From positions 1-64,000 of the forward strand of contig JANYHF010000007.1 in NCBI GenBank assembly GCA_025359185.1: a stretch of 64,000 bases of DNA, read 5' to 3'. The DNA comes from Hyphomicrobiaceae bacterium (GTDB taxonomy: Bacteria > Pseudomonadota > Alphaproteobacteria > Rhizobiales > Hyphomicrobiaceae). Below, piece by piece: positions 10,185-13,146 of the stretch. The translations under genes and the position numbers were made by a program. The notes below the pieces were generated by a model. The model ran no database searches. It saw only the letters and a list, made by a program, of their open reading frames with translations, and was not told where the DNA came from. Position 1 is the stretch's first letter, and every line of letters begins with the position of its first letter.

Positions 10185-10274
10185 ATGAAAACATGGGAAA
10201 CACCAGCCGTGACCGAGCAATCGGTCGGCCTCGAAGTCACCAGCTATTCATCGGCTGAAATCGATCCAGTCTGA
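10185..10274 (+). CDS. pqqA: PQQ precursor peptide PqqA
   Basis: A 29-residue peptide beginning MKTWETPAV. It carries the conserved EVTSY block, with Glu17 and Tyr21 four residues apart; these two side chains are cross-linked to build PQQ. A strong ribosome site TGAGGAG lies ahead of the ATG. The gene is followed by a foldback element (10338-10608) instead of running straight into pqqB, so it may be transcribed separately. Length and spacing match known PqqA peptides. Confidence 0.93.
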   Translation: MKTWETPAVTEQSVGLEVTSYSSAEIDPV

Positions 10275-10337
10275 ACCGCGCAATCGGTTTTGAAAATACA
10301 AAGCGCGACTTGGTGTTGGCACTGCTTCGGCAGCTCA

Positions 10338-10608
10338 CTAGGGCCTGTCGTCAGTTATGGGTTCGGGCTGGATGAGGTCAAAACTGGCTGAACGCAAGGC
10401 GATTTGCGCCGCCAATACACTCGTATTGGCAAGCAAAGCGACGCCGCAGTCAGACAGTTTTCACCTCACCGCTTCGCGGCGTGGCGATTTTGGCCGATGA
10501 GTGCGTTGCTCTTCCTAGCAAGCCATTTGGCTTGCGTCGTCGAGCGCCTACTCCTCGGCCAAAATCGCTCACGTCCAGCCCGAACCCATAACTGACGACA
10601 GGCCCTAG
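10338..10608. mobile_element. Foldback (MITE-like) element between pqqA and pqqB
   Basis: A 271-bp element is bounded by perfect 35-bp terminal inverted repeats (10338-10372 and 10574-10608) that begin and end in CTAG. Inside lie a second perfect 14-bp inverted repeat (10484-10497 with 10555-10568) and small hairpins (GCCAATAC at 10411-10418 with GTATTGGC at 10423-10430; GCAAGCC/GGCTTGC around 10517-10535). No transposase frame is present. The TA next to GGGCC at each end resembles the TA target of IS630/Tc1-type elements, so a non-autonomous IS630-like element is my best reading. The family assignment is inferred. Confidence 0.75.
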
Positions 10609-10665
10609 ACCTTGGCGCGTTTTTTTGTTTTTCATCCAGGCCTGCCTCTTTCATCCTTTTGGCGC

Positions 10666-11595
10666 ATGATCATTCATGTACTGGGTTCCGCCGCGGGCGG
10701 CGGCGTGCCGCAATGGAACTGCAATGGCCGCATTTCTGCTGCTGCCCGGAGCGGCAGCGGGGAGGTCTTTGCCCGCACTCAGTCTTCTTTGACGGTTAGT
10801 GCCGACGGCAAGCGCTGGGTGCTTCTGAATGCGTCGCCGGACCTGCGCCATCAAATGGCCGCAACGCCAGCGTTACATCCGCACGCAGACGGCCCGCTGC
10901 GCAACAGTGCGATCGCAGCCGTCGTACTCACCAATGCCGATGTGGACCACATCACCGGCCTGCTGACATTGCGTGAAGGCCACGCTTTCAACGTTTACGC
11001 TACCTCCCGCGTGCTCCAGGTTCTGGCGTCCAACTCGATTTTCAATGTGCTTGACGGTGAAAAAGTCTGTCGGCTGCCCATCGAGATGGACCGTTGGATC
11101 GAGGTGCTGAAGCCTCAAGATGGGTTTGGCCCTCTCGACATCAGACCCTTTCTGGTGCCTGGCAAAGTCGCGCTCTATCTTGAAGACGCATCGGCCGGTC
11201 CAGGGCTGGGGACCAGCGACGGCGATACGGTTGGTCTTGAGATTTCAGATGGTCATCGGCGACTGCACTATATTCCTGGCTGCGCACGTGTCGATGACAC
11301 GCTGAGGGCGAGATTGGCTGGCGCAGAACTCGTCCTTTTCGACGGTACACTGTTCACGGATGATGAGATGATCGCCCAAGGGCTGTCGCAGAAAACCGGC
11401 AAGCGGATGGGTCATATCAGCATGTCGGGGCCAGAGGGATCGATGGCGGCGCTTGCCGGTCTCGGCATCCAACGGCGCGTGTATATTCATATCAACAACT
11501 CAAACCCTGTGTTGCGCGAGGGATCGGCCGAACGTAGCCTGGTCGAGGCTGCGGGCTGGCAGATCGCCCATGACGGCATGGAGATCACGCTGTGA
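10666..11595 (+). CDS. pqqB: PQQ biosynthesis protein PqqB
   Basis: A 309-residue metallo-beta-lactamase-fold protein. The start MIIHVLGSAAGGGVPQWNC is the typical PqqB N-terminus, and the TNADVDHITGLLTLREGH segment supplies the metal-binding Asp/His region. PqqB hydroxylates the cross-linked PqqA-derived Glu-Tyr intermediate. The ATG at 10666 lies only 57 bases after the foldback element. The 3' end overlaps pqqC by four bases (GTGA). Confidence 0.92.
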   Translation: MIIHVLGSAAGGGVPQWNCNGRISAAARSGSGEVFARTQSSLTVSADGKRWVLLNASPDLRHQMAATPALHPHADGPLRNSAIAAVVLTNADVDHITGLLTLREGHAFNVYATSRVLQVLASNSIFNVLDGEKVCRLPIEMDRWIEVLKPQDGFGPLDIRPFLVPGKVALYLEDASAGPGLGTSDGDTVGLEISDGHRRLHYIPGCARVDDTLRARLAGAELVLFDGTLFTDDEMIAQGLSQKTGKRMGHISMSGPEGSMAALAGLGIQRRVYIHINNSNPVLREGSAERSLVEAAGWQIAHDGMEITL

Positions 11596-12338: not shown

Positions 12339-12624
12339 AACACCGCCGCTGCATATCGGCCCGGCTTCTCGACCGAAGCTGCCGCGCAGCGTGAAACTGC
12401 GCCACGATGCCAGCCGCAACCGGTGGGTTGTGCTCGCTCCCGAAAAAGTGTTATCGCCAAATGACGTCGCCCTCGACATCCTGAAACTCTGTGACGGCAA
12501 CCGGGACGTGGCTGCCATCGCTGGGGAGCTTGCCGAAACCTATGACGCGCCCAAAGAGCAGATCCTGGCTCAGGTCTTGGTGCTGCTGCGTGACCTCGCA
12601 GACAAAGGTGTGGTGACGGCGTGA
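12328..12624 (+). CDS. pqqD: PqqA-binding chaperone PqqD
   Basis: A 98-residue RiPP recognition element. PKLPRSVKLRHDASRNRWVVLAPEK followed by a winged-helix core (VALDILKLCDGNRDVAAIAGELAETY) is typical PqqD. It binds the PqqA leader and presents it to the radical SAM enzyme PqqE. The gene is translationally coupled to pqqC and its stop overlaps the GTG of the decayed pqqE. With pqqE dead here, it needs a partner encoded elsewhere. Confidence 0.9.
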   Translation: MANETPPLHIGPASRPKLPRSVKLRHDASRNRWVVLAPEKVLSPNDVALDILKLCDGNRDVAAIAGELAETYDAPKEQILAQVLVLLRDLADKGVVTA

Positions 12625-13146
12625 GCGAGCCTTACTGCTCGAACCCGCAGCAGCTGGAAAAGACGGCCACAGATCTTCCAGCGGAAATCTGACTCGACGT
12701 CATGCGGCAGGCGGCCGATCCGGGCGTCCTGCAATTGCACCTGTCCGGCGGCGAACCCTTGCTGCGGACGGATCTTGAACAGATTGGAGAAACCGCCGCC
12801 ACGTCGGGCCTGTACACCAACCTCATTACCTCCGCCGCTACACGCACAAGGGTGCGGCTCGGGGAACTTTCTGAACGCGGCCTGGACCACGTGTAGATCT
12901 CATTTCAGGACGCCGCAGCCGCCAACGCAGACCGCATCGGCGGGGCCAAAACGGCCATGCCCGTATACTCCACGCCGCCGCCTGGGTGCGAGAATTGGGA
13001 CTGGCGCCGCTCAAAGACTGATGGCAGGAATTGAGACGGTCACTGCCAACCCGCTGTTGCACACGCCCGATTTGGGCGGGACGGCGAGCACGGCTGATGT
13101 AACACGGCCCGTATGCGCTGCTTTGGCAAATGGGTCAGCGAGCTAA
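12621..13146 (+). pseudogene. pqqE: Decayed radical SAM gene pqqE
   Basis: A GTG at 12621 overlaps the pqqD stop exactly where pqqE should start. The product opens SEPYCSNPQ, so the first about 15 residues and two of the three Cys of the radical SAM CxxxCxxC cluster are missing. Frame-preserved PqqE segments follow (GVLQLHLSGGEPL, SGLYTNLITS, GLDHV.ISFQDA). They are interrupted by TGA at 12690-12692, probably a former Trp, and TAG at 12894-12896, a former Gln in LDHVQISFQD. After 12960 only a shifted C-terminal scrap near 13080-13125 (ADVTRPVCA) is recognisable; the middle and the auxiliary cluster cysteines are deleted. The gene cannot make an active PqqE. Confidence 0.88.

Follow-up and report, generated by a model that had tools for sequence, protein, structure and literature searches.

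In the 64,000-nt stretch of Hyphomicrobiaceae DNA analyzed here (the window), pqqA and pqqB are separated by a segment that folds back on itself, which raises the question of whether this segment is mobile DNA or a resident RNA structure, and what it means for the pqq genes. The foldback put forward in the original prediction is real: positions 10338-10372 and 10574-10608 form a perfect inverted repeat of 35 bp (100% identity), complementarity amounts to 75% over arms of 75 nt, and a nested 19-nt pair reaches 95%. Folding of the segment with 8 nt on either side yields -185.6 kcal/mol, compared with -98.7 ± 5.1 kcal/mol for 200 shuffled sequences (z -17.2), none of which folds equally well. Its placement between pqqA and the ATG of pqqB was likewise confirmed. 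The proposed span of 271 bp is self-complementary, but includes a C or G plus a TA duplication on each side; alignment of copies and the TA duplication confine the element proper, a MITE as detailed below, to the 265 bp between two TA dinucleotides. The locus comprises the following features:

10185..10274, plus strand: pqqA, 29 aa (from sequence)
10275..10338, plus strand: left half of the native spacer, holding the 5' arm of a split T-tract hairpin (~10291-10338; from the rejoined empty site)
10339..10340, no strand: left TA target duplication, CTAG context (from sequence and junctions of copies)
10341..10605, plus strand: MITE, 265 bp, foldback over its whole length (from alignment of copies, TA duplication and copies in its own genome)
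10341..10356, plus strand: left terminal inverted repeat, with a 16-bp core common to IS5-family elements (from end comparison)
10590..10605, minus strand: right terminal inverted repeat, sharing the 16-bp core of the left one (from end comparison)
10606..10607, no strand: right TA target duplication (from sequence and junctions of copies)
10608..10665, plus strand: right half of the native spacer, with the 3' arm GACCTTGGCGCG and a T7GT5 tract (from the rejoined empty site)
10666..11595, plus strand: pqqB, ATG at 10666 (from sequence and ORF)
12621..12959, plus strand: disrupted remnant of pqqE following pqqD, carrying two stops ahead of a frame change (from comparison with intact pqqE)

Further copies, which the original prediction had proposed to look for, are abundant. 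In its own genome (G000; 4.04 Mb on 125 contigs), the MITE matches 27 places in full or in part, five of them over the full length. Most copies in this draft assembly lie at contig ends, suggesting that the assembly breaks on the repeat, and hence both flanks are visible in four copies only. Insertions were judged by distinct outward flanks of at least 50 bases, leaving aside two flanks that repeat one already counted (L054 and L063), two that stop at the TA (the right flank of L002, and L014) and the copy on contig C75. This yielded 29 usable flanks (13 left, 15 right and one solo end) and therefore at least 15, at most ~25 insertions. All 29 flanks start with TA, followed by G in 19, A in nine and C in one case; insertion sites are TA, mostly within YTAR, and TA is duplicated, the duplication matching in each of the four copies with both flanks visible. 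The right arm reads alike in 15/15 right junctions. The left arm of other copies deviates from it by a few bases, and the perfect 35-bp left arm is confined to one of 13 left junctions, that of the window's own copy, where 10341-10375 and the right arm agree at all 35 bp, as though one arm had been corrected to the other.

The element is narrowly distributed. When G000 and 59 relatives (60 genomes in total) were searched, three matched: G000 itself, G017, from one other genus of the family, with 74% identity over the whole MITE, and G047, with 33 bases at a marginal E-value. A 22-base pattern of TA plus end, allowing up to two mismatches, was present in 3/103 family genomes (G000, G017 and G005). 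The Hyphomicrobium genome contains another relative of the MITE, with greater divergence, at G017:C39:17150-17470. Solo MITE-like ends without transposase occur at L056 and L027, the former (1499-1521) close to where a long ORF begins, presumably one for a metal-ion transporter. No viral contig matched a 21-base MITE end, a plasmid search with the entire MITE returned end matches and chance matches and nothing further, and Rfam had no match in the window.

Elements sharing the ends were found by searching plasmids with the 35-bp end, which identified IS5-family elements in Rhizobium, Azospirillum and Acetobacter (the Azospirillum locus is unannotated, and a single end was found at the Rhizobium locus). 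Their ends read GGGCCTGTCGTCAGTT, the first 16 bp of the MITE, or deviate by 1-2 bases, and adjoin TA. In G000, DDE_Tnp_1 matches were obtained at four loci, among them L079, a 908-bp element with the ends GGGCCTGTCGTCAGTT and GGACCTGTCGTCAGTT beside TA, of which the left agrees with the 16-bp MITE end at 16/16 positions and the right at all but one. Its OrfA carries DUF4096 and its OrfB DDE_Tnp_1, both above Pfam cut-offs, and both also exceed the NCBI cut-off for NF033580 (transpos_IS5_3); the two frames overlap at AAAAAAAG, where a run of A7 is located. The right end of this insertion sequence recurs at another site, on contig C20, identical over 136 bp. Relative G005 harbors two segments (L118 and L121; lengths 930 and 908 bp), which were compared by their ends and show 16/16 matches at both, together with TA. 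As judged by sequence comparison, the MITE shares its ends and TA duplication with IS5-family (IS427-type) insertion sequences, and the L079 element, or a sister of it, is most likely the candidate partner that would move the MITE in trans.

The MITE is short, is bounded by inverted repeats, contains no ORF of at least 80 aa and no transposase, duplicates TA on insertion, and exists in dispersed copies alongside an autonomous element with the same ends. The copies, the TA duplication and the absence from relatives all bear out the earlier reading as a non-autonomous transposon; the IS630-like label given to it does not hold. An IS630/Tc1-mariner origin would account for the TA duplication, and G000 has nine matches to DDE_3, the IS630-type domain. 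However, the 16-bp end beside TA (up to three mismatches) was detected at 0/9 of these fetched loci, whereas IS5-family elements, L079 of G000 among them, match the MITE ends. We therefore reject this origin, which we consider very improbable. One DDE_3 locus (L074) shows a single three-mismatch match to the 16-bp end without TA, and L069, alone among the nine in showing clear ends when scanned for inverted repeats, starts with CTAGAGCATTTTCC. Against the IS5 assignment stands that the MITE holds no IS sequence beyond the ends: blastn of the MITE against the IS5-family elements gave end matches only and no common internal sequence. Simple descent from the insertion sequence by deletion is thus not supported, and the MITE is classified by its ends and not as a deletion product.

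The alternative offered originally, in which a structured RNA native to the locus determines the ratio of PqqA to the enzymes, draws on the very stable fold and on a conserved hairpin in the spacer of relatives. We fetched 30 pqqB loci, the window's own and 29 from relatives, which a motif rule divided into 19 with both genes, four without upstream pqqA and six without a motif match. The pqqA-pqqB spacer in the 19 readable relatives measures 111-183 nt and shares a GC-rich hairpin, for which RNAalifold predicts 11 pairs, two of which have both partners altered in one or more sequences. Its sequence, however, differs from the MITE and is shorter, the window's native hairpin being different again, and MITE ends (up to three mismatches) are present in 0/19 of these spacers, whereas the same 265 bp sit at many unrelated sites with TA duplications. 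The original prediction had taken a lack of other copies in related genomes together with a spacer sequence conserved in relatives as pointing to a resident structure; the many copies and 0/19 relatives with the ends speak against one. As the origin of the segment a resident RNA is rejected and scarcely credible, and structure behind pqqA is more plausibly a property of the native spacer: the hairpin in relatives implies that such structure probably predates the MITE. Searched at the gathering threshold, Rfam had no match in 19 sources, 18 of which are pqq loci of relatives; within the relatives' spacers (L089-L117), the conserved hairpin often occurs twice in succession. This family-wide hairpin could help explain the excess of PqqA peptide over enzyme.

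A milder version, in which the mobile element now also serves as attenuator or 3'-end stabilizer for pqqA, may be entertained but appears doubtful. Rejoined without the MITE, the window spacer comprises 125 nt and contains a hairpin built from an A-rich arm, GCGCG, a stem with TTCG loop, CGCG and T7GT5, with the target TA inside it. The MITE thus lies within a T-tract hairpin, and the fold predicted with the MITE in place keeps the base of that hairpin, in favor of such a role. On the other hand, the core of the native hairpin, taken alone, has no significant stability and is only modestly better than shuffled sequences (z -1.6, with 39/500 shuffles equally good), and a strict terminator scan at the insertion site finds none, so that "terminator" stays a putative label here. 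Nor did the available text of publications retrieved by literature search describe a pqqA-pqqB terminator.

The original prediction had further linked arrival of the element to loss of pqqE. The piece behind pqqD is indeed broken, sharing 78% identity with intact pqqE over 108 residues, interrupted by two stops and continuing in another frame. However, an intact pqqE of 382 aa is encoded on contig C110 (544 bits, above cut-off); hence pqqE is not lost from the genome, and we discard this scenario. The intact gene (L076, 13640-14788) adjoins an IS630-type element with CTAGAGCATTTTCC ends.

Whether T-tract hairpins are favored targets is a tentative lead. In 3/29 MITE flanks (L001, L006 and L019), T7 occurs in the first 46 nt counted outward, compared with 4/2568 TA flanks of the window, a mostly coding background that probably includes the insertion site itself; the test was post hoc. 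Two of the three T7 flanks share the 14-mer GGCGCGTTTTTTTG, which occurs twice in the genome, both times within ~10 bp of a MITE right TA. Next to the insertion on contig C46 lies a gene that we take to encode a prephenate dehydratase. That the MITE prefers terminator-like hairpins, inserting beside or inside them, seems unlikely on this evidence, and the T7 excess may reflect a preference for intergenic sites alone. If the preference were true, a foldback that lengthens a hairpin without destroying it could sit cheaply in operons such as pqqA-pqqB.

We conclude that the foldback is a MITE copy, very probably one mobilized in trans by the transposase of an IS5-family (IS427-type) element, and that it landed in the native pqqA-pqqB hairpin. 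The transposase would act on the 16-bp ends GGGCCTGTCGTCAGTT. The MITE inserts at TA, mostly YTAR, and duplicates it; between pqqA and pqqB it entered the T-tract hairpin, lengthening it by 265 bp. We expect the hairpin base and T-tract to remain usable after insertion, in which case pqqA should still receive more transcript than pqqBCD. The MITE family has a candidate partner within the same genome, and the IS630 and pqqE-loss readings are corrected. It is a new family of a known, ordinary kind, IS5-type by its ends, at a site that is interesting but not special; the publications retrieved by literature search, in their available text, hold no description of it.

Among known systems, IS427-group elements of Paracoccus are described as 832-865 bp long, with inverted repeats of ~13-21 bp and mostly 2-bp duplications, several members possessing an overlapping ORF pair that carries a frameshift motif (PMC3281130). 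The L079 element resembles them in its 16-bp inverted repeats, TA, OrfA/OrfB organization and A7 at the overlap; at 908 bp it is somewhat longer, and its group label follows this published description and not ISfinder (PMC3281130). The MITE, in contrast, lacks both transposase and internal IS sequence. Chunjie of Geobacter uraniireducens is reported as a multi-copy foldback MITE of 178-235 bp within an operon (PMC10969869). Compared by description only, the window MITE is likewise short, multi-copy, folded back and inside an operon, but differs in host, in its location in the pqqA-pqqB spacer and in its IS5-type ends (PMC10969869). MITEPye1 of Paracoccus yeei, as reported, is also alphaproteobacterial and gives a long stem-loop RNA fold, yet carries IS1182-type ends and exists in 1-3 copies per chromosome (PMC11578231).
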